DNA from: an alpha proteobacterium AAP81b | GTDB taxonomy: Bacteria; Pseudomonadota; Alphaproteobacteria; Sphingomonadales; Sphingomonadaceae | DNA length: 47,105 bases | Direction of reading: 5' to 3' | Assembly: GCA_001295935.1 (NCBI GenBank) | Contig: LJHX01000031.1 | Coordinates: 1 to 47,105 of the forward strand | Shown here: piece after piece, positions 25,470 to 46,970 of the stretch | Position numbering within the stretch: the first letter of the stretch is position 1 | How the letters are laid out: the number at the start of each line of letters is the position of its first letter | The notes under the pieces: model-generated | Told to the model about the DNA's origin: nothing | The model's input: only the letters and a program-made list of their open reading frames with translations | Database searches by the model: none | Translations under genes and position numbers: made by a program

Positions 25470-25482
25470 TTACGGAAATTTC

Positions 25483-26565
25483 ATGACCCGGCGTTTCATC
25501 ATCAACGGCAAGTTCCTGCGCGCGCCGATGACCGGGGTGCACCGCGTCGCCGCCGAGCTGGCGCGCGGCCTCGCGCGCCTGCAGGCGGCGCGCGATCCGG
25601 CCGTCGCCGGCATGGCCTTCGAAGTCTGGCACCCGCATGACGCCCGCGAGCCCGCCAGCCTCGGCCTGCCGACCCGGTTGCTGGCGCCGCTGACGCACAT
25701 CCCCTGGGAGCAACTGACCCTGCCGCTGCGCAAGGGCGACGCGACGCTGGTCAATCTCTGCAACATCGGCCCGGCGCTCGCCGCCGACGCGGTGACGATG
25801 ATCCATGACATCCAGGTCCACCAGACCCCCGACAGCTACAGCCGCGCCTTCCGCCTTTGGTATCACGCCATCCAGCCGGCCTTCGCCCGCCGCCACCGCC
25901 GCATCCTCACCGTTTCGCACTTCTCGGCGGCCGAGATCGCGCGGGTCGGGCTGGTGCCCCGCGATCGCATCACCGTCATCCACAATGGCGCCGACCATGT
26001 GCTGGCCGAGCCCGCCGATCCGGCGGTGGTGGCGCGGCTCGGGCTGGCGCCCCAGGGCTTTGTCGTCGCGCTGGCATCGACGCAGGCGCACAAGAACATC
26101 GGCGTGCTGTTGCGCGCCTTCGCCCGTCCCGAACTTGCCGGCCTGCGCCTCGCCCTTATCGGCGGCACCGGCCGCGAGGCCTTTGTCGCGGCGGGGCTGG
26201 TGCCGCCGGCCAATGTCGTCTTCACCGGCCGCGTCAGCGACGCCGAACTGCGCGCGCTCTACGAAGGCGCGCTGTGCCTGGCCTTCCCCTCGACCACCGA
26301 GGGCTTCGGCCTGCCACCGCTCGAAGCGATGACACTGGGTTGCCCGGCGATCATCGCCCCCTGTGGCGCGCTGCCCGAAGTCTGTGGCGACGCGGCGCTC
26401 GCCGTGGCACCCGATGACGTTGCCGGCTGGGCGGCGGCGATCGCGTCGCTCGCCGACGATCCGGCACGGCGCGCGGCGCTGGTGGCGCGCGGCCGGGCGC
26501 AAGCGGCGCGCTTCACCTGGGAGGCCGCGGCACGTGGCCTTGCCGCCACGCTCGCCGGCTTATGA
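25483..26565 (+). CDS. Glycosyltransferase family 4
   Basis: A 360-residue GT-B enzyme. MTGVHRVAAELARGL near the N-terminus, SHFSAAEI and VIHNGAD in the middle, then the EX7E motif in EGFGLPPLE with EAMTLGCPAI after it, are classic GT4 signs. The ATG at 25483 lies 13 bp after the third acyltransferase and probably ends this operon. It likely adds a further sugar to the EPS repeat unit; the donor is unknown. Confidence 0.88.
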   Translation: MTRRFIINGKFLRAPMTGVHRVAAELARGLARLQAARDPAVAGMAFEVWHPHDAREPASLGLPTRLLAPLTHIPWEQLTLPLRKGDATLVNLCNIGPALAADAVTMIHDIQVHQTPDSYSRAFRLWYHAIQPAFARRHRRILTVSHFSAAEIARVGLVPRDRITVIHNGADHVLAEPADPAVVARLGLAPQGFVVALASTQAHKNIGVLLRAFARPELAGLRLALIGGTGREAFVAAGLVPPANVVFTGRVSDAELRALYEGALCLAFPSTTEGFGLPPLEAMTLGCPAIIAPCGALPEVCGDAALAVAPDDVAGWAAAIASLADDPARRAALVARGRAQAARFTWEAAARGLAATLAGL

Positions 26566-26650: not shown

Positions 26651-28324
26651 ATGGCGTTTCAGTCACTCTTGGTGGGCCTTGCAATGCGCGTGGGGGAGCA
26701 GTTTCGGAGAGGCAAAGGACTGGCAACGGCCTTCTTTGCCACGTCCTCGCTTGCTGCCGTCTTGCTTGCCGCGCCGGCACAGGCGCAGGGCGGCCGTTAC
26801 GAAGTCCAGGCCTATGACGTTATCGGCGTCACGACGCTGTCGGCGGCGGAGATCGAACGCGCCGTCTATCCCTTCGCTGGCCCCGACCGCAGCGACAATG
26901 ATCTCGAAAGCGCCCGCCTCGCCGTCGAGACGGCCTATAAGGCGCGCGGGCTCGAAGCCGTGCTCGTCGAGCTGCCGCCGCAGGATCCTGACCTGCTGCG
27001 CCAGGGCATCATCACCATCCGCGTCAACGAAGTGCCGGTGTCGCGGGTGCGGGTTACCGAATCGAAATATCACACGCCGAGCAATGTCCGCGCCGCGGTG
27101 CCGTCGCTGGTCGTCGGCCGGCCGCTCAACCTGCGCACCCTGACGCGCGATCTCGAGCTCGCCAACCGCTACCCCGATCGCGAGATCAATCCGAGCTTCC
27201 GCCCTGGGCTGATCCCCGGCACCGTCGAGGTCGAGCTGCGCGTCAAGTCGCGGCTGCCGCTGCACGGCTCGGTCGAATTGAACGACGATTCGAGTCCCAA
27301 CACCGACGACCTGCGCCTCGCCGCCAGCCTGCGCTATTCCGATCTGTGGAGCCTCGGCCACACCGTCAGCGCCAATTATGTCGTGTCGCCGCAGGATCGT
27401 AGCCAGCAGGAAGTCTTTGCCGCCTCCTATTCGGCGCCGATCCTCGGCACACCCTGGACGATCCTGGTTTCGGGCTTTTCGTCGAACAGCAATGTCGCGG
27501 CGCTCGGCGGCACCAATGTGCTCGGCGATGGCTATCAGGTCGGCGTGCGCGGCATCTACCGCCTGCCGGGAAGCACCTATCAGACGCTGGGCTTCGGCGT
27601 TGATTTCAAGAATTTCAACCAGGACATCTTCGTCGGCAACGTCAACGCCACCACCTCGCCGATCCGCTATCTGCCCTTGGCGATCGATTACACCGCGGCG
27701 CGCGAAACCGAAAATACCTCGCTCGAAGTCAATGCCGGGGTGACGCTCGGCTTGCGCGTCGTCAAGCGCGCTTTGCTCGCCCAATGCGAGGGCGGCAACG
27801 GCCAGACCATCCCTTGTCTTGTCGACCAGTTCGAAACGCGCACGCCCAACTCCAGAGAGAATTTCCTGCGCTTCACCTTCGGCGCCAGCTACACGCTGAC
27901 CAGCAAGAAGGATTTCATCGGCGTCTTCAAGCTGAACGGCCAGATCGCCGATTCGCCTTTGGTCACCAACGAACAATTCGGCGTCGGCGGCCAGACCAGC
28001 GTTCGCGGTTACCTCGTCTCGGAAGCCGTCGGTGACGAAGGCGTCAACGCCAGTGTTCAGGGTGAAACCCCGTCGTTCTTCGACAGCGGCATCATCGACG
28101 AACTGCGGCTGTTCGGGTACAGCGACTTCGGTTACGTTCGCTCGCAGTTTCCGCTCCCCGGCCAGGACGATGATTTCCGCCTGCTGAGCGTCGGCGCCGG
28201 CGTCCGTATCCGCTTGTTCGAACATTTCACGGGCCAGGCGATGTTCGCGGCGCCGCTGCTCGACGGACCGCTGACCAAGACCGGCCATCCACGCTTTACC
28301 TTCTCGGCCAGGGGCGAATTCTAG
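26651..28324 (+). CDS. TpsB outer-membrane transporter (FhaC/ShlB family)
   Basis: A 557-residue Omp85-superfamily protein that secretes the partner TpsA exoprotein. It has a long signal peptide (cleavage near AQAQ-GG, residue 46), two POTRA domains (about 50-125 and 126-205), then a 16-strand barrel with the conserved SVRGY motif (Val451-Tyr454, the L6-type loop) and a C-terminal phenylalanine. A Cys pair (379 and 389) probably forms a loop disulfide. The ATG at 26651 is used; Met12 (26684) is an alternative that gives a shorter signal. The partner TpsA lies about 5 kb downstream in the same apparent operon, with energy-transduction genes between them. Confidence 0.92.
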   Translation: MAFQSLLVGLAMRVGEQFRRGKGLATAFFATSSLAAVLLAAPAQAQGGRYEVQAYDVIGVTTLSAAEIERAVYPFAGPDRSDNDLESARLAVETAYKARGLEAVLVELPPQDPDLLRQGIITIRVNEVPVSRVRVTESKYHTPSNVRAAVPSLVVGRPLNLRTLTRDLELANRYPDREINPSFRPGLIPGTVEVELRVKSRLPLHGSVELNDDSSPNTDDLRLAASLRYSDLWSLGHTVSANYVVSPQDRSQQEVFAASYSAPILGTPWTILVSGFSSNSNVAALGGTNVLGDGYQVGVRGIYRLPGSTYQTLGFGVDFKNFNQDIFVGNVNATTSPIRYLPLAIDYTAARETENTSLEVNAGVTLGLRVVKRALLAQCEGGNGQTIPCLVDQFETRTPNSRENFLRFTFGASYTLTSKKDFIGVFKLNGQIADSPLVTNEQFGVGGQTSVRGYLVSEAVGDEGVNASVQGETPSFFDSGIIDELRLFGYSDFGYVRSQFPLPGQDDDFRLLSVGAGVRIRLFEHFTGQAMFAAPLLDGPLTKTGHPRFTFSARGEF

Positions 28325-28385
28325 GCCGCCACGACGATTGCCACCGACTCTTGCCAATGACTTTTGCGACCAACGGGGACTGACG

Positions 28386-30137
28386 ATGAGGAAATGGTAT
28401 CTGGCGGCCTTCGCCGCCCTGATGACCCTGGCCACCCCGGCGAACGCCTGGTGGAACAAGGACTGGACGTATCGCAAGCCGGTGGTGATCGACACCTCGC
28501 CGTCGGGCGTCAACGTCGCCGGGCCGATCGGGCGGACGCCGGTGCTGGTCAAGCTGACCAGCGCCAATTTCACCTTCACCGACGCCCTGGACAATGGCGC
28601 CGACATCCGCTTCGTCGATGCCGACGACAAGACGCCGCTGCCCTACCATGTCGACAGCTATGATGCTTCGACCGGCATCGCTTACGTCTGGGTGTCGGTC
28701 ACCAACGTCACCGGCGGCGAGAAGCACCAGGTCTGGCTGTATTTCGGCAACAAGACCGCCGGCGCCGGCAGCGACGCCAAGGCGACCTTCGACGCCGACC
28801 AGAGCTTCGCCTTCCACTTCGCCGAAGCCCCCGGCGCGCCGGCGCTCGATTCGACCGCCTATGCCAACAACGCCGCCGCCGGCGCTGCCGCCGTCAACGA
28901 CGCCGGCATCATCGGCCGCAGCGTCCGCTTCGCCGGCCAGGACGGGCTGACCATCCCCGAAACCGCCTCGCTCGCCATGCCGGCGGCGGCGCCCTTCACC
29001 TTCTCGGCCTGGGTCAAGCCGCTGCAGCTGGGCGGCGAGCAGCGCCTCTTCAGCCGCGGCGCCTTCGTCTTCGGGCTGAACGCCGGTGTGCCCTTCGTCG
29101 GCAACGGCCCGGCGCGCGCCCAGGCGTCGGCGGCGGTGCCGCAGGCGCAGTGGAGCCACCTCGCTGTCGTCGCCGACGGCACGACCTTGAAGATTTATGT
29201 CAACGGCGTCGAAGCCGCCGCCGCCTCGGTGGCACTGCCCGAACTCACCGGGCCGATCGCGCTCGGCGGCGCTGCCGGCGTCCCCGGCCTTATCGGCGAG
29301 CTTGACGAAGCCCGGCTCGCCAAGACGGCGCGCCCGGCGGCGATGCTGCTGACCATGGCGCAGAATGAAGGCCCGACGTCGAAGCTGGTCAGCGTTTCGG
29401 AGAGCGCCGAAAAGGCCGAGGCCGGATCGACCTTCTTCTTCATTCTCGGCAAGGTCGAGGCCCTCGACGCCGGCATCATCGCGCTCTGCCTCGCCCTGCT
29501 GGCGCTGGCGATCTTCGTGATGATCACCAAGTCGAGCTACATCTCGGCCGCCGACCGCGCCAATGCCGCCTTCATGAAGCGCTATCAGTCGATGCGCGAA
29601 AATCTGCAGCCGCTCGACCAGGTTCCCGGCCTGTCGCCGAACGAGCTGAAGTATCTGCGCACCGCGCCGCTCGCCCGGCTCTACGACGCGGCGATCGAGG
29701 AGCGTGACGCGCTGATGGCATTGTCGCGCGGCCGCCTGTCGGGCGAAGCCGTCGAGGCGATGCGCGCCGCGGTCGACGCCCAGCAGGTCGCCGAAAACCA
29801 GAAGCTCGATACCTGGATGGTGGTGCTGACCATCGCCATCGCCGGCGGTCCCTTCATCGGGCTGCTCGGCACGGTGCTCGGGGTGATGAACACCTTCGGC
29901 GGCGTCGCCATCGCCGGCGACGTCAACGTCAACGCCATCGCTCCCGGCATCGCCGCGGCGCTGATGGCGACCGTCGCCGGCCTGACCTGCGCCATCCCGG
30001 CGCTGTTCGGCTACAACTGGCTGTCGGGGCGCATCCAGGCGCTGTCCGACCGCATGCGCGTTTTCGTCGACCGGCTGGTGACCAACGCCGCCGAGCAGAC
30101 GGCGCGTCACCACGAAATGCGCGAGGCGGCGGAATGA
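28386..30137 (+). CDS. ExbB/TolQ proton channel fused to periplasmic DUF2341 and LamG-like domains
   Basis: A 583-residue fusion. It has a signal peptide (1-21, PANA-WW), a DUF2341 domain (about 22-145, with NKDWTYRKPVVID and VWLYFGN), then a concanavalin/LamG-like lectin fold (about 150-330, with PFTFSAWVKP, WSHLAVVADG and LKIYVNG). The ExbB part has three membrane segments (about 360-382, 475-503 and 515-545), with GPFIGLLGTVLGVMNTF and MATVAGLTCAIPAL typical of TolQ/ExbB. The lectin part should face the periplasm ahead of the first helix. It lies 61 bp after tpsB and 28 bp before exbD. Ordinary ExbB proteins have no such head, so this channel may be gated by a carbohydrate or cell-wall ligand. 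Confidence 0.88.
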   Translation: MRKWYLAAFAALMTLATPANAWWNKDWTYRKPVVIDTSPSGVNVAGPIGRTPVLVKLTSANFTFTDALDNGADIRFVDADDKTPLPYHVDSYDASTGIAYVWVSVTNVTGGEKHQVWLYFGNKTAGAGSDAKATFDADQSFAFHFAEAPGAPALDSTAYANNAAAGAAAVNDAGIIGRSVRFAGQDGLTIPETASLAMPAAAPFTFSAWVKPLQLGGEQRLFSRGAFVFGLNAGVPFVGNGPARAQASAAVPQAQWSHLAVVADGTTLKIYVNGVEAAAASVALPELTGPIALGGAAGVPGLIGELDEARLAKTARPAAMLLTMAQNEGPTSKLVSVSESAEKAEAGSTFFFILGKVEALDAGIIALCLALLALAIFVMITKSSYISAADRANAAFMKRYQSMRENLQPLDQVPGLSPNELKYLRTAPLARLYDAAIEERDALMALSRGRLSGEAVEAMRAAVDAQQVAENQKLDTWMVVLTIAIAGGPFIGLLGTVLGVMNTFGGVAIAGDVNVNAIAPGIAAALMATVAGLTCAIPALFGYNWLSGRIQALSDRMRVFVDRLVTNAAEQTARHHEMREAAE

Positions 30138-30165
30138 TCGCGGGCATTTTCAGGAGCATCGCGCC

Positions 30166-30576
30166 ATGAAGGCAGGTCCCGGCGGTCGCAAGGCCTATGA
30201 CGACATCAACATCACGCCGATGCTCGATCTGGCCTATGTGCTGCTCGTCATCTTTATCCTGATGGCGACGGCAAGCGTTCAGGGCATCAAGGTCGAGCTG
30301 CCCAAGGCGTCGTCGTCGGTAAGCTTGGCCCAGCCCAAGACGATCGCGCTGACGGTCAACAACCAGGGCCAGATCTTCATGGATGCCTTTCCGGTGACGA
30401 TCAGCGACCTCGAGACGCGGCTGCGCAACGCCAAGGCGCAGAATCCCGAGGTGCCGATCGTGCTCAAGGGCGACGCTACCGCGCAGTACGGCAAGATCAC
30501 CGAAGTCCTCGACCTGTGCCGCCGGCTCGACCTCAACAAGGTCGGCCTCGTCACCGGCAAGCAGACCGCGGGCTGA
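30166..30576 (+). CDS. exbD: ExbD/TolR proton-motive-force transducer
   Basis: A 136-residue protein with one N-terminal membrane helix. INITPMLDLAYVLLVIFIL carries the essential proton-carrying Asp21. The periplasmic domain has the usual PIVLKGDATAQYGKITEVLD pattern. It works with the ExbB fusion encoded 28 bp upstream and TonB encoded 11 bp downstream to pass proton-motive force to the outer membrane. GGAG precedes the ATG at a normal distance. Confidence 0.93.
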   Translation: MKAGPGGRKAYDDINITPMLDLAYVLLVIFILMATASVQGIKVELPKASSSVSLAQPKTIALTVNNQGQIFMDAFPVTISDLETRLRNAKAQNPEVPIVLKGDATAQYGKITEVLDLCRRLDLNKVGLVTGKQTAG

Positions 30577-30587
30577 GGGCAATTGTG

Positions 30588-31307
30588 ATGGCCGGCATCG
30601 ACGACAGCTTCGAGATCCCGCGGGAAAACGCGCTGATGCGCGTCCTGCCGGCGGTCATCGGGCTGCTGGTGGTGGCGGCGATCGTCTGGTTCGTCTGGAC
30701 CCAGCTCAACAGCGTCGTCGGCGTCAGGAAGGACGAGCCGCCGCCCGTCGTCGCCAATCTCGATTTCCTGCCGCCGCCGCCACCGCCGCCGCCACCACCC
30801 CCCGAGCCCGCCGAAAAGCCACCCGAGCCGAGCCCGGAGGCGCCGACCCCCAATCCTGAACCGTCGCCCAAGCCCGACGCCCCGGCCGAGATGAAGATCG
30901 ACGGTCCGGCGCAGGCGGGGACCGACAGTTTCGGGATTTCGGCGGGCGCCGGCGGCGGCCTCGGCGCGCCTGGCAGCGGCGGCACCTGCGTCGGCACCAA
31001 ATGCGGCGGCGGTGGTGGCGGGGTGTTCAGCGATGCCTTCTACCGTCGCGGTCTCGGCGATGCGCTGCAGCGTGAGATCGACCGCAACGACGAGCTCAAG
31101 CGCAAGACTTTCAAGGCCTATTTCCTGATCACCATTTCGCCGCAGGGGCGGGTGACCAACGTCAGGCTCGACCAGTCGAGCGCCAACAGCGAGGTCGACA
31201 AGCTCCTGCAATCGCTTCTCGAAAGCGTCCGCGGCCTCGATGCGCCGCCGGCTTCCGTGAAATTCCCCCAGCGCATTTTGGTCACCGGCAAACGCTCGGG
31301 CAGATGA
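30588..31307 (+). CDS. tonB: TonB-family energy transducer
   Basis: A 239-residue protein. It has one membrane helix (about 20-40), a proline-rich periplasmic spacer with eleven consecutive prolines (62-72) followed by PEP-type repeats, a glycine-rich linker holding Cys134 and Cys139 (TCVGTKC), and a C-terminal TonB/TolA-like domain (about 155-239, with FKAYFLITISPQGRV). I chose the ATG at 30588, with GAGGG 8 nt upstream. The stop overlaps the next start (ATGA). TonB usually energises TonB-dependent receptors, none of which are in the window. Its placement suggests that the TpsB or the porin-like barrel of this operon is the target. Confidence 0.88.
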   Translation: MAGIDDSFEIPRENALMRVLPAVIGLLVVAAIVWFVWTQLNSVVGVRKDEPPPVVANLDFLPPPPPPPPPPPEPAEKPPEPSPEAPTPNPEPSPKPDAPAEMKIDGPAQAGTDSFGISAGAGGGLGAPGSGGTCVGTKCGGGGGGVFSDAFYRRGLGDALQREIDRNDELKRKTFKAYFLITISPQGRVTNVRLDQSSANSEVDKLLQSLLESVRGLDAPPASVKFPQRILVTGKRSGR

Positions 31308-33115
31308 CAAGGACGATGACGATGCTTCGACACGCCCAGAGGTTCCTGCGAACCCCGCTGCCGGCCGCGGCGCTGGCGCTGCTGCCGTTGGCCATGCCCG
31401 CCGCCGCGCAGGAAGCCGCACCGGCGGCGCCGGCGCCGGCCGCCACCGCGCCGTCCGACAGCGCCATGGTCAATCTGGTTCGCGCGCTGGTCGCCCAGAA
31501 GGCGATCACCGAAGCGCAGGGCAACGCGCTGATCGCCCAGGCCGAAGCCGAAGCCGCCGCGGCGCGCGCGGCGCGCGAGGCGGCCCCTGCCGGGATCGCC
31601 GCGGCGCCCCCCGGCACCATCCGCGTGCCCTATGTGCCCGACACGGTGCGCACCCAGATCAAGGAAGAGCTGAAGCGCGAAGTCCTCGCCGAGGCCAAGG
31701 CCGAGCGCTGGGCCGCTCCCGACGCGGCGGCGCCCGAATGGACGCAGCGCATCACCATCGGCGGCGACCTGCGCGTCCGCTATTATGGCGAATATTATTC
31801 GAACCAGAACAGCAACCAGATCATCGACTTCGAGCAGATCAACCTGCAGGGGCCGTACGACGTCTTCAACAACCCGGTGCTGCCGTTCCTGAACAGCCGC
31901 CAGAACCGCAACACCGCCGACTTCCGCCTGCGCCTCAACATCGGCGCCAAGATCACTGATCGCCTCGCCGTCGACCTGCAGCTGGCAACGGGCGACGATC
32001 GCTCGCCGATTTCGGTGTCGGACAGCCTGGGCGGTGGTCTCCGCCCGCGCAACTTCTGGGTGCAGCGCGCCGCGATCATCGCCAAGCCGACCGACTGGAG
32101 CCGCGTCTGGGCGGGTCGCTTCACCAACCCCTTCACTTCGGCGGCGCTGACCACCGAGCGCGTCACCCTGTTGTTCGACAACGATCTCGCCTTCGACGGG
32201 ATCGCCGCCGAAGCCAATATCGGCAAGGCGCTCGGCCAGGATTTCAACGCGACGGTGCGCGGCGGGCTGTTCCCGATCGATCTCGGCGGCCGTAATTATC
32301 CGTCGACGTCGCAGGACAAGATCGCTTATCCGGCGAAGTATTTCTACTCGGGGCAGCTTGAGCTCGAGCACAAGTTCGGCGGCGTCGATGTCCAGGCGTC
32401 GATCGCCTATCACGACTTCAAGAACATCCAGGGCCAGCTTTCGGAGCCCTGCCTCGTCTATCTCGGCGCCGTCGAATGCTCGACCGACGGCTTCCGCCCG
32501 AACTTCCAGCGCAAGGGCAACACGCTGTCGCCGCTGCGCCGTATCGCCGTCGATCCGACCCTGCCGTCGGGCCAGGTTCAGCCGCAGCCGCAGTTCTTCG
32601 CGCCGACCTTCGGTTTCCGCGTCCTCCACCTCAGCGCCGAAGCCAATGTGCCGGTGTGGGACAAGACCTTCGTCAAGGTGACCGGCCAGTACATCAACAA
32701 TCTGGCCTTCAAGCGCAGCGACATCTGCCGCAACGGCATCGCCGGCCAGCCCTTCAACAACGGCGGCGACGGCGGCGATGGCAATATCTGCTCGGCGACC
32801 AATGCGACGCCGTTCGTCGGCGGCAACCAAGGCTATCAGATCGGGCTGGCGCTCGGCACCGCCAAGATCAAGACGCGCGGCGACTGGTCGCTCAACCTCG
32901 GCTACCGCTACCTCGAATCGGACGCGATCCTCGACAGCCTGACCGATTCGGACTTCCATCTCGGTGGCACCAACAACAAGGGCTTCATCGTCGGCGCCGA
33001 AGTCGGCATCGCCAAGAACCTGGTGGTCGGCGGGCGCTGGCTGAGCGCCAACGAGATCGCTGGCGAGCCCTATGCGATCGACGTTCTGCAGATCGAAATG
33101 GTGGCGAGCTTCTGA
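31304..33115 (+). CDS. Porin-like outer-membrane beta-barrel protein
   Basis: A 603-residue protein with a signal peptide (cleavage near residue 35, PAAA-QE), an Ala-rich, partly helical N-terminal stretch (about 36-135, with NLVRALVAQKAIT), then a beta-barrel domain from about 145 with ITIGGDLRVRYYGEYY as first strand and a terminal Phe. This matches the 'putative porin' family (Porin_5-like). Two cysteine pairs lie in loops. It overlaps tonB upstream and the coiled-coil gene downstream, so it belongs to the secretion operon. It could be an accessory barrel that captures or releases TpsA or a polysaccharide; its true role is unknown. Confidence 0.75.
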   Translation: MTRTMTMLRHAQRFLRTPLPAAALALLPLAMPAAAQEAAPAAPAPAATAPSDSAMVNLVRALVAQKAITEAQGNALIAQAEAEAAAARAAREAAPAGIAAAPPGTIRVPYVPDTVRTQIKEELKREVLAEAKAERWAAPDAAAPEWTQRITIGGDLRVRYYGEYYSNQNSNQIIDFEQINLQGPYDVFNNPVLPFLNSRQNRNTADFRLRLNIGAKITDRLAVDLQLATGDDRSPISVSDSLGGGLRPRNFWVQRAAIIAKPTDWSRVWAGRFTNPFTSAALTTERVTLLFDNDLAFDGIAAEANIGKALGQDFNATVRGGLFPIDLGGRNYPSTSQDKIAYPAKYFYSGQLELEHKFGGVDVQASIAYHDFKNIQGQLSEPCLVYLGAVECSTDGFRPNFQRKGNTLSPLRRIAVDPTLPSGQVQPQPQFFAPTFGFRVLHLSAEANVPVWDKTFVKVTGQYINNLAFKRSDICRNGIAGQPFNNGGDGGDGNICSATNATPFVGGNQGYQIGLALGTAKIKTRGDWSLNLGYRYLESDAILDSLTDSDFHLGGTNNKGFIVGAEVGIAKNLVVGGRWLSANEIAGEPYAIDVLQIEMVASF

Positions 33116-33558
33116 TGCGCAGCCTGATCCTTCTCGCCGTCCTGCTGGCAACGCCGGCGCTGGCGCAGCGCGCCCCGGCAGCGCCGGCCCCGCCCGCAGC
33201 GCCGGCAGCGCCGACCGATGCCGAACTGCTGGCGCGTGCCAACGCCCAGCTCGACGCGGCGCGTGCCGAGATCCAGCGGCTGCGCGCCATCGGCGCCGAA
33301 GCCGAAGCGCTGCAGGCGAGCAGCGCCGAAGTGCGCGCTCGCAACGAGCGGCTGGTCGCCATCGCCAACGAACTCGTCGCGGCGTTCGAGGCGCGCTACG
33401 GCAAGACCGTGCGTTTCGCGCCGTTCAATCGCGCGCGGGTCAAGTTCGAGGCCGAGCTGGCGAAGACCAGCGAACGAATTTACCAGAATCAGGCCGATGC
33501 CGTGGCGGTGCGACCTAACGAGGTTAACGCCGCCGATCCGGCGCCGAAGCCCGAGTAA
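33115..33558 (+). CDS. Small periplasmic coiled-coil protein
   Basis: A 147-residue protein of unknown function. It has a signal peptide (1-17, PALA-QR), a short Ala/Pro linker, then an amphipathic helix of about 60 residues rich in Ala, Glu and Arg (LLARANAQLDAARAEIQRL and onwards) that should form a coiled coil. The conserved-looking YGKTVRFAPFNRARVKFE follows and the C-terminus is polar. It overlaps the porin gene by 1 nt (TGATG) and lies 66 bp before tpsA. A periplasmic chaperone or spacer for the giant TpsA is a fair guess from position only. Confidence 0.72.
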   Translation: MRSLILLAVLLATPALAQRAPAAPAPPAAPAAPTDAELLARANAQLDAARAEIQRLRAIGAEAEALQASSAEVRARNERLVAIANELVAAFEARYGKTVRFAPFNRARVKFEAELAKTSERIYQNQADAVAVRPNEVNAADPAPKPE

Positions 33559-33614
33559 TTGTCACAGGAATGCAGTAACTCTTCGCGAGTGGCTGCATCT
33601 TTGGGGCTGCGAGT

Positions 33615-33618
33615 GGAG
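33615..33618 (+). promoter_or_regulatory. Ribosome binding site supporting the GTG start of tpsA
   Basis: GGAG sits 6 nt before the GTG at 33625. A TTG at 33559 follows directly on the previous stop with no ribosome binding site, and would put 22 extra residues before the signal peptide, so the GTG is preferred. Confidence 0.5.
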
Positions 33619-33624
33619 AGCATT

Positions 33625-39600: not shown

Positions 39601-42600
39601 TTCGATCCGGCAACCGGCCAGGGCCAGCAATATGCCGATGGCCGCCAGGTCTTCGCGCTGCTGCCGGTGGCGGCGGCGGGCAATCTGGCATTCAGCGACC
39701 CGATCTACAGCGCCGATTATGGCAGCGCCGGCCCCGTCGATCTTTATGGCGCCGCCGCCGGGCGCACCGTGCGGCTCGACGCCGCCCCCGGCTTCGCCGG
39801 CGGCGAATATCTCTTGCTGCCCGGCCATTATGCGCTGCTGCCGGGCGCCTTGCGGCTGGTCGAGAATGTCGATGCGCTGGCGCCGGCCGCCGATCAGGCG
39901 CAGACGCTGCGCGATGGCAGCTTCGTCGTCGGCGGCACCTATGCCACCGCCGGGACGAGCTTCAACGAAGCGCAGCGGCATTCGTTCACCGTGCAGAATG
40001 CCGCGACCTTCGGTTCCTATTCGCGGATCGCAGTGACCGGCGGCAGCGCGGCGATCACCGCTGCCGCCACCGCCGCCAACCGCGCGACACCGCGCCTGCC
40101 GCTCGATGCGGCGCGCGTCACGCTGGCGCCGCTGATTTCACTGACCGGCACCGGCTTTTTCGACACCGCCGCGGCGACGGGCGGGCGCGGCAGCGAGGTC
40201 GATATTTCAGGGCAGGGCATCGTCATCGCGCCGAATGGCACGCCGGCGCGGACCGACGCGCTGGTGCTGACGCCGTCGGTCCTCGCCGGCCTCAACGCCA
40301 ACAGCCTGTTCATCGGGGGCGAGCGCCGCGACAACCTCGACGGTACGACGGCGCTGCGGATCACCGCGACCGATCTCACCGTGAGCAGCGGCGTGACGTT
40401 CGAAGCGCCGGAAATCCTGCTTGCCGTCGACGCGCCGACGGTGACGAGCGTTCCGACCTTGCGGATTGAAGACGGCGCCACGATCCGGGCGTCGGGGGTG
40501 CTTTCGGGCGCCCGCACGACCAATTTTGTGATCGAAACCGGAGACTCGGGGATCAACACCGGTATCGGCGCCGTCGTCCGCGTCGCCGACGGCCCCGAGC
40601 GACTGCTCGTGCGGCGCGGCGCGCCCGCCGCCGCCAATTCGACGCGACAAGCCAATCTGATCATCGGGTCGGCGACGCTGCGCGGCGACGCGGTCCTGGT
40701 CGACTCGAGCCGCACGCTGACCATCGAGCCCAATACGGTGCTTGCCGGGCAGTTCCTCGCGCTCGGCGCCGACAATCTGCGGATCGGCGAATTCTACAAC
40801 AGTGACGCGCAGCTCGCCAATTTTGCCGCCGCCGAGCGGCTCACCCTGACATCGAGCGATCGCATCCGCATCTCGGGCGGCGATTATCGCTTCCGCAACC
40901 TGGTGCTCGACGGCCCGGGGCTGGCGCTGCAGACCAGCCCGCCGGCGCAGGCCGCCGGCGATTCGGAAACCGTTACCATCGCCGCCGACAGCGTCAGCCT
41001 TAGGAACAGCAGCGGTATCGCCCGGCCCTGCGGTGTCGCGGCGCTGGCCTGTGCGTCAAGCGCCAATCGGCTGTTCGTCAACGCCGGCGAGATCGTTTTC
41101 GGCGATGGCGACTTCGGTACCTTCGGCTTCGATGGCACCGTGGCACTGGCCGCCTCGCGCGGCGCCTATTATGAGGGTGTCGGCAGCTTCGACACTGACG
41201 CCACCTTCCTGACCTTGTCGACGCCCTTCCTCATCGACCGCGCCAACGCCGGTCGTAGCAGCCAGGCGGCGGTCGATTTCGCGCTGCTCACCGACAACCA
41301 GATCGACATCAACCGGCTCGGCGCCATCGCCGGCGCGACGCCGACCGGCGAGCGTGCCCCCGGCGCGCGGCTGCAGCTCGGCAACGCCGATCGTCCGCTG
41401 CGCGCCCTTGTCGTCGATGGCACGGCGGTAACCGCGACCGCCGGCGTCATCGCCGCGACGGTCAGCGGCGACATCGTCGTCCGCAACGCCGCGCAGCTCC
41501 TTGCCACCGGCTACACCAAGACGTTCGGGGACAATCTCGACGGCTATACCGTTTCGGCATCGGGCGGCACGATCAGCCTGGTGTCGACCCGGGGCAATAT
41601 CCGCCTGACCAGCGGCACGCGCGTCGATGTCGATAACGGCATCGGCAACGCCGGAACGCTGCGCTTCCTCGCCGGCCGCGGCGCGGTCGAACTCAACGGT
41701 GCCCTCAACAGCGCCACCGGCGTTCGCACGGGATCGCTGATCCTGGAAGCGGCGCGCAATTCCTTCGATCTCGCCGGTTTCGTCACCGCGCGCGGCGCCG
41801 GCTTCCAGGGCCGCATCGATATCCGCACCGGGCTCGGCGATCTGACGCTGGCCGACAACCAGCGGCTGCGCGCCACCTCGGTCCGCCTTGTCGCCGATGG
41901 CGGCGCCGTCAATATCGCCGGCACCATCGATACGTCGGGCACCAATATCGCCACCGCGGGGCCCAATGGCACGCGTCTCAGCGACGATGCCGCGCGCCAG
42001 GCCAACCCCGATGGCGGCAACATCGAACTGTTCGGCGAAACCGGCGTCACGCTCGCCGGCGACGCCCGGCTCGATACCCACACCACCGGCTATGCCGCCG
42101 ATGAAGTGCGCGCGCGCACCTTCAACGGTGTCACCCTGGGCGGCGATACCCGCACCGCGACGGCGGGCGATGTCACCATCGGCATCGGCAGCGACGCGGC
42201 GCGGATCGTCATTTCCGCGGACGCCGCCATCGATCTCGGGGCGCGCCGCGCGGGCAACCGTCTGGTCGCCGAACTGACCAAGACCGCGTCGCTGACCGAT
42301 GAAGTCGTCTATCGCTTTGTCGAAGCCGACAAGGGCGGTGCCCTGCTGCTGCGGGCACCGGTGATCGGCGCGACCGGCAATGCGGTCGGGATCGAATTGC
42401 CGGAGACCAGCGTCGTCACCGGGGCGCGCAGCCTGACCGTCGAGGGCGTCCGGACCTATGATCTCGACAATCTCGCCGGGCGTTATGCCGGGGTCAGTCT
42501 CGATCCCGACAGCAACAGCATCCAGCTCAACCTCGCCACCGGCTATAACAATGGCGGCAGCACCGGCAGCAACGCTCTGGCCAACAGCTTTACCGACGGC

Positions 42601-45600
42601 AGCTTCCAGTCGGTGGCCTATTTCGTCCAGAACTTCCGCATTGCTGCCGCGAGTGGCTCGCTCGCCGACTTCGACGCGCGCCCCGGCGTCGAGCTGGTGT
42701 CGACGCGCGCGGTGAACCTTGCCACCAACTGGAATCTCGCCGCCGCCGATATCAATATCGCCGGTATTCTTGCCGCCCAGCAGGCGCCCGGCGCCGTGCA
42801 GCTGCTGCGGCCGGAGCCGGCGCTGACCGCCAATAGCGGCGCGCGCTATTCGGTGGTGCCTGGCAGCGAAGCCGCGCTGCTCGAAAGCAGCTTCACCCGC
42901 TTCGTCTATCGCGTCGACGGGCTCGCGACGGGCGCGGCGCCGGTCCTGACCATTCGCAGTGCCGGCGATTTCACCAACCGCGGTCGCCTGGGCAATCAAT
43001 CGACGGGCAGCAGCATTTCCGACGGCTTCTTCCTGTTCACCGACTTCACCGATCAGGCCTTTGTCAGCGCTCGTCTCGGCGGCGCCGGCGCGGCCGGTGC
43101 GCCGCGCGCGCCGTTCAGCGTCGCCGGCAACCGGCCGGCGGCGCAAGGCACCGTCACCACCAACAACGCCGGGGTGGTGCTTGCCGAAGTGGGCGATCCG
43201 CTCGGCTCGGCGGCGCTGTTCCCCTTGCTCGCGGGCGGCAGCCAGACGATGGCGTCGTCGAGCTATCGCATCGTCGCCGGTGCCGCGCTGGCATCGGCCG
43301 ATCCCTTGCAGGTCGACCGCGGCCGACCCGCCGATCTCGCCATCGGCGGCGAGCGGACTTACAATGTCGACCGAACCACCGGCGCCAATGGTTTGCCCAA
43401 TGCGGGCACCGCTTTGAACGATGCTTATGTCGGCGCCGTGGTGCGAACCGGCACCGGCAGCATCGCGCTGGCGGCATCGCGCGACGTCAATCTGCTGCGC
43501 ACGGCGGCGCCGGTCTATCGAAGCCTCTCGCGGCAAGCCGATTTGACGAGCGTGCAGCAGGTCGGCAGCAGCGCCGTCTATACGGCCGGCGCACGGATCG
43601 TGACCACGACGCGCCTGACCGCGGCGACCTTCGGTGGCGGGACGCCTATCTCGTTCGATTGGGACGCGCTGGTGCCGACCGCGGCACCGTTCGACACGGC
43701 GACCTATGTGCCCCGTCGGAGTGGCCAATATCTGCTCGACCCGGTCCTGGCCGCTGGTGGCGGCGACGTCGATATCGTCGCGCAGCGCGATATCGTCGGC
43801 CGCCGCGATGCCGCGAATGAGTTCTACCTGTCGCGCGACGTGCCGATCGAACAGGCAGACCGGGTCGGCGAGACCGGCCAGGCCTGGCGTGTCGGCCAGT
43901 CGCGCGGGGCGATCGTTGCGGCGGCATTGCCGCACTTCTTCCGGTCGGGTGTCGGCACCCTGGCGGGGGGCGATACCACTGTCGTTGCCGGACGCGACGT
44001 CACCGAACTGACCGTCGTCGCCAACAATGTCGCCGTCAACGCCGACGAACGCAGCACCGCATTGCTCAAGCCGCAAGCCGTGGGCGGCGTGACCCCGCGC
44101 GTGCTGGCGAGCTTCGGCGACGGCGATGTCGTCGTGCGTGCGGGCAATGATGTCGCCGGCGGCCAGATCGATGTCGCTTCGGGCCGTGGCACGATCACCG
44201 CCGACGGCGCGGTTGTCGGTGACGACGTTTTTGCCGGCGTGGGCCGGACCACCACCGTCGCCGCCGATTTGCGGGTTCGCCTCACCGATGCAACGGTCGC
44301 CGTCAGTGGTCGCGGCTCGGTGACGCTCGACAGCGTCACGTCACTCGGTGCCGATGCCCGCTCCGGCCTTGCCTCGACGCTCAGCACCGGGGACATCAGC
44401 GCCGCGTCGGGCCTCAAGGTCCTGACGGCGGGCTTCATCAATTTTACCGCTCGCCAGATTTCCAGTTTCGACGCGCTCAACGCGGCAGTCCCTGTCGATA
44501 TCGGCACCACGTTGCTGACGACCTACTACGACCCGCTGACACCGGGCGGCACATATCAGGTTACGAGGGGCCTGGTCTCGCCGGGATCACTTGAACTGGT
44601 GGCGCTCGGCGGCGATATCGACTTCAGCAATGCTGCCGGTGGCCGCAGTATCTTCATGCTGCCCTCGCGCCTCGGCCAGTTGCGTCTGCTCGCCGACGGC
44701 GACATCAATCGTCTCAGTCTGGCGATGAGTGATGCCGACCCCGGCTTGCTGCAAGGCAATTTCTCGGCCTACGCCGCACCGGACGCACTGCTCGCCGGCT
44801 CGGTGTCGACCGACCGCTTCGGCGTCGAATTCGGCTTCCCCGCCACCTGGCCCGGGCTGGCCGAAAATCGCCTGCGCAACTTCCACAATGAACGGCCGAC
44901 GCACGCCGACAATCCGGACCCGGTCTTCATCGCCGCGGAAGGCAGCCTGCGACGCGCCGTCCTGAACCTGCCCAAACAGGCCCGCATCCGCGCCGGCGGG
45001 GACATCAGCAATTTCTACTTCACCGGCCAGAACCTCGCCGCCAGCGATGTCACCCGTATCGTCGCGGGTCGCGATATCGTCGGCACGCTGGCGCTCGATG
45101 TCGGTATCGTCGGCGCACTGCCCTATGTTGCCGGCAACAATTTCGTCGTTGGCGGCCCGGGTTCCCTGGTTGTCGAAGCCGGGCGCAACCTCGGTCCGTT
45201 CCTGAGTTCGGGCCGGCTCGGCGACCCCAACCAGAGCTTCGCCGGTGGCAGCTATGCCGGTGGCATCCGCACCGTCGGCAACGAACTCAATCCGTGGCTG
45301 GGCAGCGATGGCGCCTCGATCATCGTCGGCTTCGGCATCGGCGGCGGCGCCGATTACGCGGCGTTGCGCGAAGCCTATCTCAACCCCGGCAATTTCGACA
45401 ATCTCGATGGCGATCTCTTCGTCCAATATGTCGACACCCTCGGCAATCGACGCCCCCTCAACCGCACCAATGTCGAGGCGCTGATCGCCGCGGGCGGCGG
45501 CCCGGTGACCATCGAACTGCTCGACAGCAGCGGCAGGCTGGTTCAGGCGACGCTCGACACGCCGGCGGTGCTGCCGGTTCGCGCCGCCACCCTGGCGCAA

Positions 45601-46908
45601 TGGCTGCAAGTCAACGCCCCCGCCGCTTATGAAGCAGCGGTGGCGGGGGCGTCGCCCGGCGTCAGCTTCACCGGCCCGCAATTGAGCGATCCGCAAGCGG
45701 CCGCGGCGCAGCAGGCCGAAATTCGCTTTGCCCTGGCCGCCGGCTTGCGCGCCGGGGCGCTGTACAATGCATTTGTCGATCCGGCGGTTGTTTCGCCGCT
45801 GCAGCAGCAATCCTTCCTCGCCAGCGATCTGCTGTTCGCCGAGTTGCGCGAACCGGCACTGACCAACAGCGCGTCGTCGCAGCAGTTCATCCGCGGTTAT
45901 CGCGCCTTGCAGACGCTGTTTCCGACCAGCCGCGGCTATACCGACAATCTTGCGGAAGCACTTTACGAGACCGACCCCGCCACGATCACCACCGACAATC
46001 CGCAAGGCGTGCCGCGCCGCCGTCTCGATGCCAATGGCCAGCCGGTTGTCGCCGATCGCAAGCTGACCGGCGATGCCGATCTGCGCTTGTCGACCTTGCA
46101 GACCGCGCGGGGCGGCTCGCTGACGATCCTCGCGCCGGGTGGCGACCTGATCGCTGGATCGGTCGTCCGGCTCAGCGAGCAGCTGTCGCGCCGCTACGGC
46201 CTTGGCCGCTCGGCGTCCGAGTTTGGCCTCTTTGTCCCGCCGACCCTGCCGTCGATTGGGTTCGGCGGCGTCGACAGCTTCCCGCGCGGCTTCGAAGGCC
46301 TGCTCACCCTGCGGTCGGGCGACCTGCGCGGCTTCTTCGATGGCGACTTCCGCCTGAACCAGAGTCGCGCCTTCACCTTCGCCGGGGGTAACATCAATTT
46401 CTGGTCGTCGAACGGCGATTTGAACGCCGGCCAGGGCCCGCGGACGGCGGCGAGCTTCCCGCCGATCACGGTACGCTTCAACAACGATGGCGTTGGCGAG
46501 GTCAACAGCATCGGCAGCGTGTCGGGCGCCGGCATCGGTACCTTCAAGCGCAATCCCGAGGACGCCGATTCGGAAATCGTGCTCGTCGCCCCGGTGGGTG
46601 AAGTCGACGCCGGCGACGCCGGGGTGCGCGCTTCGGGCAACATCTTCGTCGCCGCGGCGCGCGTCGCCAATGCCGCTGGCTTTTCGGCCGGCGGCTCGAT
46701 CTCGGGCGTGCCGACCGGCGTCGGGGTTGCCGCGCCGGGGCTGCCGACGGGTGCCAATTCCACCCAGCAGGCGGCGCAGCAGGCGGCGCAGATCGGTAAT
46801 GCCGGCGATCGCCGCTCGGTGATCAACGTCGATGTTCTGGGCGCCGTCGATCCCTGCAGCGTCGATCCGCGCGACCCCAATTGCGTCAGGCCGCCGACCA
46901 ACCCCTGA
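33625..46908 (+). CDS. Giant TpsA exoprotein, filamentous-haemagglutinin type with DUF3739-like C-terminus
   Basis: A protein of about 4,427 residues from the preferred GTG. It has a signal peptide (1 to about 36, VPALA-Q), an Ala/Arg-rich lead, then the TPS secretion domain (about 145-300) with ASWDRFDIG, STILGRIEAPG and QINVGSLLASSL. The expected NPNG-type motif is LNRAGV here (233-238). The rest is mostly beta-helix-like repeats such as GGNISL/GDIxxxA blocks, without long DNA repeats. The C-terminal 500 or so residues (INFWSSNGDLNAGQGP, VAPVGEVDAGDAGVRASG) match the DUF3739 family of such proteins. I see only four cysteines, at 2469, 2476, 4411 and 4420; the last pair lies 8 residues from the end. 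It is secreted by the TpsB encoded at 26651 and probably forms a long surface fibre. Confidence 0.92.
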   Translation: MNAKVEPATPRRAFRLLAGASVVALVASVAAVPALAQLARLRAAAGVGITPATVAAAAARPPGAGIVRPATRAEALARAQALRTRSDTLRSYIVNARNASLAAIGPQPGNGLVANGLSPIQAIRDAIAAGATSVPAGLTADRDASGVATWQNVNLPTQTTEGGRVVVGLVQTSSRAIASWDRFDIGANTTLRVTQKVGAVDQPGWTLLNRVANNVAPSTILGRIEAPGTVVVLNRAGVAFGQGSQINVGSLLASSLEIGAYLTASVNRVPTLASLAERNATFLQNGLFSGFDPARSEPTIQPMLFSPQFSLDGSALPPEGAITVDRGASITAAAGGQIIFAAPNVVNNGLLFASDGQVSLQGGRYIGITNSTGADDSADRDVRGYILTSFRPLDPAQSLTGGIVPPAASFDDGAIVNAGLIQSLRGYVSLGTTERGSVANNGLIEATTSVSRNAKVALYGGTVTFGGVRNDSGVLLGGGIRILPDGNGETLPQGSPGADSTFKTSQISISSFATSRLAKDDSGVSGQLPTIVDFQQGSFIEAPGATVRIGRDVDSDLAANRLFPSSITLGADVVIDVSGSKGELFVTEDGVRRAVGVDESGIAVDGDRNFLTITPVTRNELRDTPTYREVAVDGNFTLNASTLTVDIRNSGVRSDGVRWVGSPLLEAGSAAAQIAVTAAELLSTGGSVTLGVVPVTSLLPVNIADQAPSVRIATTATIDISGGWLNYSASSKGTSKLRTADGRVVDIRDADRNDNFVAIVDGFVSEQPRFGLRDVFNSPLTPSVVGEPGYTEGRDAGALIINAAAADVGGKIFGNAFAGRVQIANGSRGTTVSSRALDPRRLQTNRTDLPNGGYVRISPFATASEAQTPSAAAIVVYRGARTAIAPGTSELPETNPNTDAGFWLRDILLDGDMLSAAGLSALTLESTGGISFAGAGDLAGLPITATGDAALGLAPGGNLTLSAGRSILFNGTVVSAGGVISATTRRGFSPGQNPSIDALDATGSPFDSADDLLLAYAPDAVLPSRTFDIVVNGSLSTAGLWTNSLTDTDVAGGRAFLDGGSISLTVAPKALVAQIGSNVATDLSGRIEIASAARIDVSAGGYVATDERFDLSGRGGNVSLINRTVYASLIRNQPQTALGTELGDEPIDGANQSVDFDRTGLPNDLTPMIMPAVRRAAVLFDESSLIGFGFTGGGRFELVSPDIRFNEAPAANASNVSLDFLQKTGFGTLALTTTRSRFFNDLFTNARDGVSAFLDTTTFRIRSGQTLDLTQVELPRFLNQGQSDLLLGLTSGSDVVAALRPTVDGGVFVAPTAVFDQTAAKLEFGGLTELVVDTGATISTRAPGAEIDVTKLLVRRAGTGLRDDGTIGTIANIRLPGGKIVQREQLFPLTPGAQLRGVRATENDNGLSAVFGTPVAGGQFDLQAPIAGGPSIQTLLTVIDDRVVFAGALDLDEAVRLEAGSITDLSGGPAIYNPRAPINVNGQLRQGILPDGGSLSTAPADPNAGVFQRRFTAEAGALLDLSGSAGVFDQAASGNQQIATTVLSNGGTLSILGGGTLRRGVVRAGGGVAPASPGANAPVAIGGTLEWLRPTLAPDATDGSLLGNNVLASGAIGDAGFDTLITRGGFTVSGALDLRLDKALLITSGPRLSEVGSATVAPGLAQIGVAQQIVISGAAGANATISAPFIRSESLIGYAVTNTASLGDASLRLEAGNNGLDVAGAVLFDRSLANVRLGSARDIRLIGVNDIFVPGQIAALNGEILGFGNLTFDAVRVYATTGTGNLQRNLENFQVRPNELAALPYQITALPTDVVGAAATAPSITFLGRQGDRSVPLSAGSYLRVQARTIIQNGALYAPLGVLELGSIDSAPVFLGVTPFVAGNNVARTVATSALTFGAGSLTSVSAVGAKIPYGTTSDLRELFFAPTGTADLSVLPFGQLRLAGRDITFGGTTARIDGRGTDDPLALFAFEFVSGVGGSRDVLSRINTDAFSSNNFDPATGQGQQYADGRQVFALLPVAAAGNLAFSDPIYSADYGSAGPVDLYGAAAGRTVRLDAAPGFAGGEYLLLPGHYALLPGALRLVENVDALAPAADQAQTLRDGSFVVGGTYATAGTSFNEAQRHSFTVQNAATFGSYSRIAVTGGSAAITAAATAANRATPRLPLDAARVTLAPLISLTGTGFFDTAAATGGRGSEVDISGQGIVIAPNGTPARTDALVLTPSVLAGLNANSLFIGGERRDNLDGTTALRITATDLTVSSGVTFEAPEILLAVDAPTVTSVPTLRIEDGATIRASGVLSGARTTNFVIETGDSGINTGIGAVVRVADGPERLLVRRGAPAAANSTRQANLIIGSATLRGDAVLVDSSRTLTIEPNTVLAGQFLALGADNLRIGEFYNSDAQLANFAAAERLTLTSSDRIRISGGDYRFRNLVLDGPGLALQTSPPAQAAGDSETVTIAADSVSLRNSSGIARPCGVAALACASSANRLFVNAGEIVFGDGDFGTFGFDGTVALAASRGAYYEGVGSFDTDATFLTLSTPFLIDRANAGRSSQAAVDFALLTDNQIDINRLGAIAGATPTGERAPGARLQLGNADRPLRALVVDGTAVTATAGVIAATVSGDIVVRNAAQLLATGYTKTFGDNLDGYTVSASGGTISLVSTRGNIRLTSGTRVDVDNGIGNAGTLRFLAGRGAVELNGALNSATGVRTGSLILEAARNSFDLAGFVTARGAGFQGRIDIRTGLGDLTLADNQRLRATSVRLVADGGAVNIAGTIDTSGTNIATAGPNGTRLSDDAARQANPDGGNIELFGETGVTLAGDARLDTHTTGYAADEVRARTFNGVTLGGDTRTATAGDVTIGIGSDAARIVISADAAIDLGARRAGNRLVAELTKTASLTDEVVYRFVEADKGGALLLRAPVIGATGNAVGIELPETSVVTGARSLTVEGVRTYDLDNLAGRYAGVSLDPDSNSIQLNLATGYNNGGSTGSNALANSFTDGSFQSVAYFVQNFRIAAASGSLADFDARPGVELVSTRAVNLATNWNLAAADINIAGILAAQQAPGAVQLLRPEPALTANSGARYSVVPGSEAALLESSFTRFVYRVDGLATGAAPVLTIRSAGDFTNRGRLGNQSTGSSISDGFFLFTDFTDQAFVSARLGGAGAAGAPRAPFSVAGNRPAAQGTVTTNNAGVVLAEVGDPLGSAALFPLLAGGSQTMASSSYRIVAGAALASADPLQVDRGRPADLAIGGERTYNVDRTTGANGLPNAGTALNDAYVGAVVRTGTGSIALAASRDVNLLRTAAPVYRSLSRQADLTSVQQVGSSAVYTAGARIVTTTRLTAATFGGGTPISFDWDALVPTAAPFDTATYVPRRSGQYLLDPVLAAGGGDVDIVAQRDIVGRRDAANEFYLSRDVPIEQADRVGETGQAWRVGQSRGAIVAAALPHFFRSGVGTLAGGDTTVVAGRDVTELTVVANNVAVNADERSTALLKPQAVGGVTPRVLASFGDGDVVVRAGNDVAGGQIDVASGRGTITADGAVVGDDVFAGVGRTTTVAADLRVRLTDATVAVSGRGSVTLDSVTSLGADARSGLASTLSTGDISAASGLKVLTAGFINFTARQISSFDALNAAVPVDIGTTLLTTYYDPLTPGGTYQVTRGLVSPGSLELVALGGDIDFSNAAGGRSIFMLPSRLGQLRLLADGDINRLSLAMSDADPGLLQGNFSAYAAPDALLAGSVSTDRFGVEFGFPATWPGLAENRLRNFHNERPTHADNPDPVFIAAEGSLRRAVLNLPKQARIRAGGDISNFYFTGQNLAASDVTRIVAGRDIVGTLALDVGIVGALPYVAGNNFVVGGPGSLVVEAGRNLGPFLSSGRLGDPNQSFAGGSYAGGIRTVGNELNPWLGSDGASIIVGFGIGGGADYAALREAYLNPGNFDNLDGDLFVQYVDTLGNRRPLNRTNVEALIAAGGGPVTIELLDSSGRLVQATLDTPAVLPVRAATLAQWLQVNAPAAYEAAVAGASPGVSFTGPQLSDPQAAAAQQAEIRFALAAGLRAGALYNAFVDPAVVSPLQQQSFLASDLLFAELREPALTNSASSQQFIRGYRALQTLFPTSRGYTDNLAEALYETDPATITTDNPQGVPRRRLDANGQPVVADRKLTGDADLRLSTLQTARGGSLTILAPGGDLIAGSVVRLSEQLSRRYGLGRSASEFGLFVPPTLPSIGFGGVDSFPRGFEGLLTLRSGDLRGFFDGDFRLNQSRAFTFAGGNINFWSSNGDLNAGQGPRTAASFPPITVRFNNDGVGEVNSIGSVSGAGIGTFKRNPEDADSEIVLVAPVGEVDAGDAGVRASGNIFVAAARVANAAGFSAGGSISGVPTGVGVAAPGLPTGANSTQQAAQQAAQIGNAGDRRSVINVDVLGAVDPCSVDPRDPNCVRPPTNP

Positions 46909-46935
46909 TCGGCTGACAGCGCCGCGCCAAGGCAG

Positions 46936-46970
46936 CGCCCGCCGGCTCCCCAGCCGGCGGGCGTTTCCTT
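46936..46970 (+). terminator. Intrinsic terminator after tpsA
   Basis: A 12-bp perfect GC-rich stem (46936-46947 with 46952-46963) with a CCCC loop, followed by TTTCCTT, 27 bp after the tpsA stop. This is a classic rho-independent terminator and ends the 20-kb operon. Confidence 0.85.

Follow-up and report, generated by a model that had tools for sequence, protein, structure and literature searches.

The run of seven genes at positions 26651-46908 of the window (the whole analysed stretch of 47,105 nucleotides from the alpha proteobacterium AAP81b, contig LJHX01000031.1) is best read as a type Vb, or two-partner secretion (TPS), system of the DUF3739/Pdt type with a built-in proton-motive-force motor. 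Intact DUF3739 TPS members are never without this motor in the genome samples, one interrupted case apart, and the motor very likely serves this TPS system. The features of the locus and its surroundings are as follows.

162..26565, plus strand: polysaccharide cluster (BBP2_2, Wzz, flippase, glycosyltransferases, acyltransferases, RTX-repeat proteins, type I exporter)
26651..28324, plus strand: TpsB, an Omp85-type transporter with POTRA and barrel, POTRA1 directly after the signal peptide
28386..30137, plus strand: ExbB/TolQ-like stator protein with an N-terminal DUF2341 and LamG head (Pfam, NCBIfam)
29955..29957, plus strand: Ala540 codon of the ExbB fusion, at the site of the transmembrane Glu in plain ExbB/TolQ (E. 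coli Glu176)
30166..30576, plus strand: ExbD/TolR-like stator protein (Pfam), proton-path Asp at residue 21
30588..31307, plus strand: TonB-like protein with a TonB_2 C-terminal domain and a proline-rich spacer (Pfam)
31304..33115, plus strand: Porin_5 barrel with an N-terminal extension (Pfam 1.8e-145, AF2 pLDDT 83)
31625..31648, plus strand: VPYVPDTV codons, porin residues 108-115, a candidate docking site conserved in motor-linked porins
33115..33558, plus strand: coiled-coil-like protein of 147 residues, short and helical, with a signal-like start
33625..46908, plus strand: TpsA, a giant exoprotein with an N-terminal TPS domain and a C-terminal DUF3739 (family searches)
46934..46965, plus strand: GC-rich 14-pair hairpin 3' of the TpsA stop (fold z = -4.4), a possible terminator with a weak T tail

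Gene organization of the locus

All seven genes are read from the plus strand in the order TpsB, ExbB fusion, ExbD, TonB, Porin_5, coiled-coil-like protein and TpsA, so that the colinear run described in the initial annotation was borne out by ORF positions and family searches, as was its tight spacing (gaps of at most 66 bp and two overlapping joins), the intergenic distances being 61, 28, 11, -4, -1 and 66 bp when counted from likely start codons. The ORF of the ExbB fusion opens at TTG 28338 with a likely start at ATG 28386, that of TpsA opens at TTG 33559 with a likely start at GTG 33625, and an alternative GTG start is possible for TonB at 30516. The single terminator proposed for the end of the run stood in part, since a strong hairpin does follow the TpsA stop but is without a good T run; a simple terminator scan lists a site at 47079-47095 and misses this hairpin, and its sites are no commoner than in shuffled sequences. 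No sigma-70-like promoter was found within 26300-34000.

The polysaccharide cluster upstream, which we take to be sphingan-like, ends in a glycosyltransferase gene about 85 bp upstream of tpsB, and co-transcription of the polysaccharide genes with the TPS run is therefore possible. Sulphate assimilation genes (a CysN/C-like fusion and PAPS reductase) lie on the minus strand inside this region, at 17361-20218. None of the window ORFs scanned belongs to the YbjN, PpiC, sigma factor or FecR types, and no vreAIR-type sigma, anti-sigma or signalling family occurs among 22 further window ORFs; control from elsewhere is possible. The genome contains 28 matches to TonB-dependent receptors, none of them on this contig, which confirms the earlier statement that no such receptor lies nearby and rejects an overlooked neighbouring one.

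Domain composition of TpsB, TpsA and the accessory protein

TpsB matches POTRA_2 (2.8e-08) and ShlB (1e-16) in Pfam, and its nearest solved folds are CdiB (6wim) and FhaC (4ql0); Pfam, the AF2 model and the fold match all give the POTRA and Omp85-type barrel of a TPS transporter. TpsA, a protein of about 4.4 kilo-residues, contains the TPS domain TIGR01901 (9e-14; residues 200-279) expected of a type Vb exoprotein, and DUF3739 (8.5e-27) at residues 4276-4386. The barrels of type Va and Vb systems are described as plugged by one N-terminal helix (PMC5422565), a feature taken here as typical of type Vb rather than strictly defining, and the window TpsB is without it. In its AF2 model (pLDDT 84.5), residues 1-45 fall below 50 and the first strand begins at residue 51, and this N-terminus without confident structure, followed directly by POTRA1, agrees with a short stretch between signal and POTRA.

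The same holds for the class. The distance from the signal core to POTRA1 has a median of 19 residues in 79 motor-linked TpsBs as against 53 in 40 controls, which were hand-picked among the matches listed, many of them the strongest (L212 was taken by position, the class profile having missed it), and the difference is significant by a Mann-Whitney test that ignores kinship (p 1.2e-13). Gaps of at least 38 residues occur in 13 of the 79 motor-linked proteins, where they are mostly Ala/Pro-rich, versus 37 of the 40 controls. By a home-made composition rule, an H1-like glutamine/charge-rich helical stretch is present in 31/40 controls and in none of the 79 motor-linked TpsBs, that of the window included; the 78 distinct sequences give the same result.

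The coiled-coil-like protein (33115-33558) matches no Pfam family and is the positional counterpart of PA0697 of Pseudomonas aeruginosa. Its relatives were found in 61 of 66 loci with a profile seeded partly with the window protein; a profile iterated without that protein reaches it at 1.1e-08, which the first-round profile of three sequences failed to do.

Motor proteins

The ExbB fusion contains DUF2341 (1e-17), Laminin_G_3 (6e-21) and MotA_ExbB (3e-25) by Pfam, while ExbD matches its family at 3e-30. TonB possesses a TonB-type C-terminal domain, as TonB_2 (2e-06) lies above the cut-off; TonB_C and TIGR01352 are below theirs. Both stator proteins score higher to the TolQ/TolR than to the ExbB/ExbD models (all below the cut-offs), and the best match of the ExbB fusion in a PDB profile search is TolQ. 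The N-terminus of E. coli ExbB lies on the periplasmic side, and the lectin-like DUF2341 and LamG head of the fusion should hence also be periplasmic. PMC12505986 mentions MotA/ExbB-type proteins that carry DUF2341 heads.

The proton-site Asp is found in all 105 ExbD proteins (95 distinct) and the Thr pair in all 99 ExbB fusions. The transmembrane Glu is found in none of the 99 fusions (96 distinct), which have Ala (94), Gly (3) or Ser (2) at this site, and in 18/18 plain ExbB/TolQ paralogues among those listed. E. coli ExbB is reported to require this residue (PMC8599685), so coupling in the fusions, which are without it, may differ from that of the Ton system. In six loci (L065, L133, L140, L142, L148 and L152) a second ExbD gene stands next to the first, both placed between ExbB and TonB.

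The porin and its VPYVP motif

The barrel protein covers nearly the whole Porin_5 profile, and its AF2 model comprises a helical hairpin (residues 54-93), a linker, the VPYVP motif and a helix (residues 113-133), followed by the barrel; the N-terminal extension is expected to lie in the periplasm. The best solved fold is OmpM1 of Veillonella parvula (8bym), and OmpM is described as an outer-membrane tether and nutrient channel (PMC10628300). No plug or barrel family of TonB-dependent receptors was found in this protein, in which Porin_5 alone exceeds the cut-off and the fold is of the porin type; no peptidoglycan-binding family was found by Pfam in either the porin or the ExbB head.

The motif VPYVP, a fairly loose pattern that matches 1/221 other core proteins, occurs in 84 of the 91 porins from motor loci (83 of 90 distinct sequences) versus none of eight motor-less Porin_5 relatives, whereas a hairpin-like N-terminus is visible in motor-less relatives too. 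As the part of the porin that accompanies the motor, VPYVP is the best concrete candidate for a TonB contact.

Co-occurrence of motor and TPS genes

DUF3739 was found in 14 of 398 Pseudomonadota genomes, and the ExbB fusion, sought among the three top-ranking ExbB candidates of each genome, is encoded by the same 14 (E 8.5e-51 or better) and absent from the other 384, the next best matches being plain ExbB/TolQ at 9.9e-23. The linkage of motor and TPS genes proposed initially is thus recovered in related genomes (14/14 with DUF3739, 0/384 others), and these linkage counts reject chance clustering. A Porin_5 protein matched from the profile start occurs in the same 14 genomes and in none of the remaining 384; five further genomes contain a distant relative matching only from profile position 154, and one more is marginal. 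TpsB-like proteins (ShlB) are found far more widely, in 177/398 genomes, 164 of which have neither DUF3739 nor the fusion, and this search catches 13 of the 14 DUF3739 genomes, missing the fragmented G284. The 14 positive genomes span seven families of the sample, and the co-occurrence has a log10 p of about -25 if genomes are assumed to be independent, an assumption that does not hold.

Fusion and DUF3739 lie no more than 25 kb apart on one contig in 11 of the 14 genomes. The genes sit at contig ends in G130 and G284, while in G268 the motor lies well inside contig C17, with about 40 kb on each side, and TpsB, porin and TpsA are on C29; that both halves are retained though unlinked counts against hitch-hiking. 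In G019 and G360 the order is TpsB-TpsA, then the motor.

Within the family of the window, 129 genomes that partly overlap the first sample nearly replicate the linkage. DUF3739 exceeds the cut-off in nine of them (G418 has a weak match below it), and the fusion is found at E 1e-40 or better in eight of these nine and in 0/120 others, the same eight possessing Porin_5 from profile position 6 or earlier. The ninth genome, G400 (L230), encodes an 819-residue DUF3739 frame preceded by an in-frame stop and an open frame of 1,273 residues whose identity is unproven; motor and porin are absent from the 34 kb around it and from the genome searches. This DUF3739 gene looks decayed, with an assembly error as an alternative, and its interruption together with the absence of motor and porin could represent a joint loss. 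G403 is a frameshifted draft, and G438 and G473 contain Porin_5 relatives with the motor absent.

Loci beyond the genome samples

When species genomes were scanned with the alignment of the fusion, 80 loci were kept from 169 relatives among the matches listed, and by their titles these 80 come from Alpha-, Beta- and Gammaproteobacteria, Anaeromyxobacter and Verrucomicrobiota; the nearest named loci to the window run among them are those of Sphingomonas and Sphingobium. As they were baited with the ExbB fusion, these loci test content rather than exclusivity and are silent on TPS loci without the fusion; one contig is doubled in the set (L061 = L149), and distinct counts are given separately. 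Among the 66 loci whose downstream sequence reaches 6.5 kb or more, ExbD was found in 65, TonB in 66, the porin in 65, the coiled-coil-like protein in 61, YbjN in 31 and PpiC in 35. The one ExbD miss (L122) is an effect of ORF labels, and the porin missed in L092 is encoded on the other strand, 1.3 kb past the coiled-coil-like gene. TpsB lies directly upstream of the fusion in at least 54 of 75 loci with enough upstream sequence, a count that is too low because L076, L093 and L121 have an adjacent TpsB overlapped by long frames, and TpsA is present in 41/56 loci having 9 kb on both sides. Gene order is variable and content nearly constant.

The fusion also occurs on 11 plasmid records, two of them from Klebsiella. 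Three of the four plasmids viewed contain TpsB-ExbB-ExbD-TonB-porin, while in that of Methylomagnum neither TpsB nor a porin adjoins the motor. One Klebsiella plasmid (L072), typed as conjugative IncFIB, carries the module with two TpsA and sigma/anti-sigma genes, near IS elements and arsenic resistance. The Methylomagnum plasmid (L074) encodes the ExbB fusion, ExbD, TonB and the coiled-coil-like protein, with TpsA about 17 kb away and RiPP maturation genes and alkaline phosphatases in between.

Relationship to known systems

The P. aeruginosa genes pdtA-phdA-pdtB-exbB2-exbD2-tonB4-PA0696-PA0697-PA0698-PA0699 belong to the VreI regulon; among them PA0696 is a putative porin, PA0698 a YbjN and PA0699 a PpiC protein (PMC2729926, PMC7035377). 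One promoter transcribes phdA to PA0701, including pdtB, exbB2D2 and tonB4 (PMC4971064), and the locus is under phosphate-starvation control (PMC7035377); the latter, a 2020 paper, calls the TonB genes a putative and still uncharacterised system. The arrangement is therefore not new, a point that the initial annotation had left open, as the PA0690-PA0699 gene order and its association in other genera were already printed in papers of 2009-2020 (PMC2729926, PMC7035377, PMC4971064).

The window shares the order tpsB-exbB-exbD-tonB-porin, with a giant TpsA nearby, described for the Pdt type (PMC7035377, PMC4971064). Like the P. aeruginosa Pdt locus (PUMA3/VreI regulon), it encodes a giant TpsA, TpsB, ExbB, ExbD, TonB, a porin and a protein at the PA0697 position, a match drawn from papers and from other Pseudomonas loci rather than from P. 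aeruginosa sequence; these other loci (L094, L105, L112, L120 and L126) have the Pdt order including YbjN and PpiC. Given this shared order, the window contains a sphingomonad-like member of a known, little-studied locus type, differing from the Pdt locus in the position of TpsA, which follows the motor, in the placement of the run behind polysaccharide genes, and in that YbjN, PpiC, sigma factor and FecR-type genes were not found among the window ORFs scanned.

With FhaB/FhaC and CdiA/CdiB the locus has in common a TpsA with a TPS domain and an Omp85-type TpsB with POTRA, but it differs from them in its own motor, porin and coiled-coil-like protein and in a TpsB without an H1-like plug helix. 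The HxuABC haemopexin system likewise ties TpsA and TpsB to a TonB-driven function (PMC5422565), though through a TonB-dependent transporter, whose place is taken in the window locus by a porin and a dedicated motor. TolQR-TolA and ExbBD-TonB resemble this locus in having a periplasmic rod and two stator proteins whose Thr and Asp sites are conserved, whereas the ExbB of the window has a DUF2341/LamG head and no transmembrane Glu, and its contig has no TonB-dependent receptor. The tether porin OmpM is the best structural match to the barrel, which is likewise preceded by an N-terminal extension; no SLH domain was found in the window porin, which has the VPYVP motif instead.

As assumed at the outset, TPS is described as working without an energy source (PMC5422565), and the energy source of TPS has been called unresolved (PMC8151025). 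No paper testing a motor for TPS export was found in the literature searched, which was mostly open-access, and in the same literature the words DUF3739, PF12545, PF16930 and PF10102 are absent. Nor did that literature yield any mention of how strictly motor and TPS genes co-occur, of the absent H1 plug, of a porin motif linked to the motor or of the altered ExbB site.

Proposed mechanism and alternative explanations

The proposition that the TolQR/ExbBD-like motor acts in the outer-membrane export, assembly or display of TpsA is evenly balanced. It draws on the bond of the motor to one TpsA class rather than to TPS generally, on the class TpsB without a self-plug and on the PpiC-type proteins that accompany about half of the loci. 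In such a mechanism, the stator of ExbB fusion and ExbD would move the TonB-like rod across the periplasm, and TonB would engage outer-membrane partners from the same operon, most likely the VPYVP extension of the porin and possibly the POTRA side of TpsB. The force might help the TpsA of about 4,000 residues to cross or leave the outer membrane, or might hold TpsA at the surface and release it, while the lectin-like ExbB head and the coiled-coil-like protein could gate or anchor the assembly and PpiC, encoded in about half of the loci though not in the window, may act as a TpsA chaperone. More tentatively, the loci may form a distinct TPS class combining proton-motor-powered export, an unplugged TpsB and an OmpM-like porin whose VPYVP docking motif serves as the handle of the motor.

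Several observations argue against powered export. In vitro, a reconstituted type V system has carried out translocation with no energy added (PMC5422565), the ExbB fusions are without the transmembrane Glu, and the classical TonB_C is matched weakly; the DUF3739 frame of G400 occurs without fusion or porin, though its gene appears interrupted. P. aeruginosa transposon mutants of tpsA, tpsB, tonB (PA0695) and PA0696 showed parent-like virulence in zebrafish with vreI over-expressed (PMC2729926), a result that does not bear on export.

The presence of the porin in nearly every locus fits equally well the main rival, energised uptake, in which TpsA captures a surface ligand and a TonB-coupled porin imports it, so that the motor serves the porin and not export. 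A precedent exists in HxuA/HxuB with the TonB-dependent transporter HxuC (PMC5422565). The initial annotation had already named a motor-driven barrel as an alternative, and this has gained evidence because full-length Porin_5 is linked to the motor as strictly as TpsA is (65 of 66 loci have a porin 3' of ExbB) and VPYVP, absent from the motor-less relatives examined, is confined to motor-linked porins among those compared. The nutrient-channel role described for OmpM, the nearest solved fold (PMC10628300), the phosphate-starvation control in P. aeruginosa (PMC7035377) and the phosphatase genes near the motor on one Methylomagnum plasmid point the same way. We nevertheless consider uptake unlikely: the barrel has an ordinary porin fold and is no TonB-dependent receptor, there is no phosphatase among the best 25 of 152 and of 136 families (190 of 313 predicted flanking ORFs scanned), which gives little backing to a phosphate-scavenging neighbourhood, the flanking families listed (polysaccharide export, type II secretin, FecR, LysR) give no pointer to a nutrient, and the missing H1 plug of TpsB would be left unexplained.

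A mechanical role, in which a TolQR-like motor and an OmpM-like porin brace or remodel the envelope for a giant surface protein with no direct push on export, would accord with the better scores of ExbB and ExbD to the TolQ/TolR models (all below cut-offs), with the resemblance of the porin to the outer-membrane tether OmpM1 and with the lectin-like ExbB head. It is improbable, however, as no peptidoglycan-binding family was found by Pfam in the porin or the ExbB head and the motor is confined to DUF3739 genomes in the sample, which does not suggest a general envelope system. Mere hitch-hiking, that is, co-regulation and co-mobility of motor and TPS genes without a joint function, could explain the ExbB fusion on the 11 plasmid records and the patchiness of the module, which two same-genus genomes are without, but it is very hard to reconcile with strict co-occurrence over seven families of the sample, with the retention of both unlinked halves in G268, with near-constant content under variable gene order and with class-specific TpsB and porin features.

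Significance

No energy source at the outer membrane figures in descriptions of type V secretion, whose driving force is listed as open in reviews. As motor and export genes co-occur in the loci described here, and their TpsB is without the standard plug, removal of genes could decide whether export is powered. Powered export, if true, would be a large exception to the textbook rule for type V systems, among which, to our knowledge, no route with a dedicated energy source has so far been described. It would also widen the roles of TonB-type motors past nutrient uptake and Tol-Pal.
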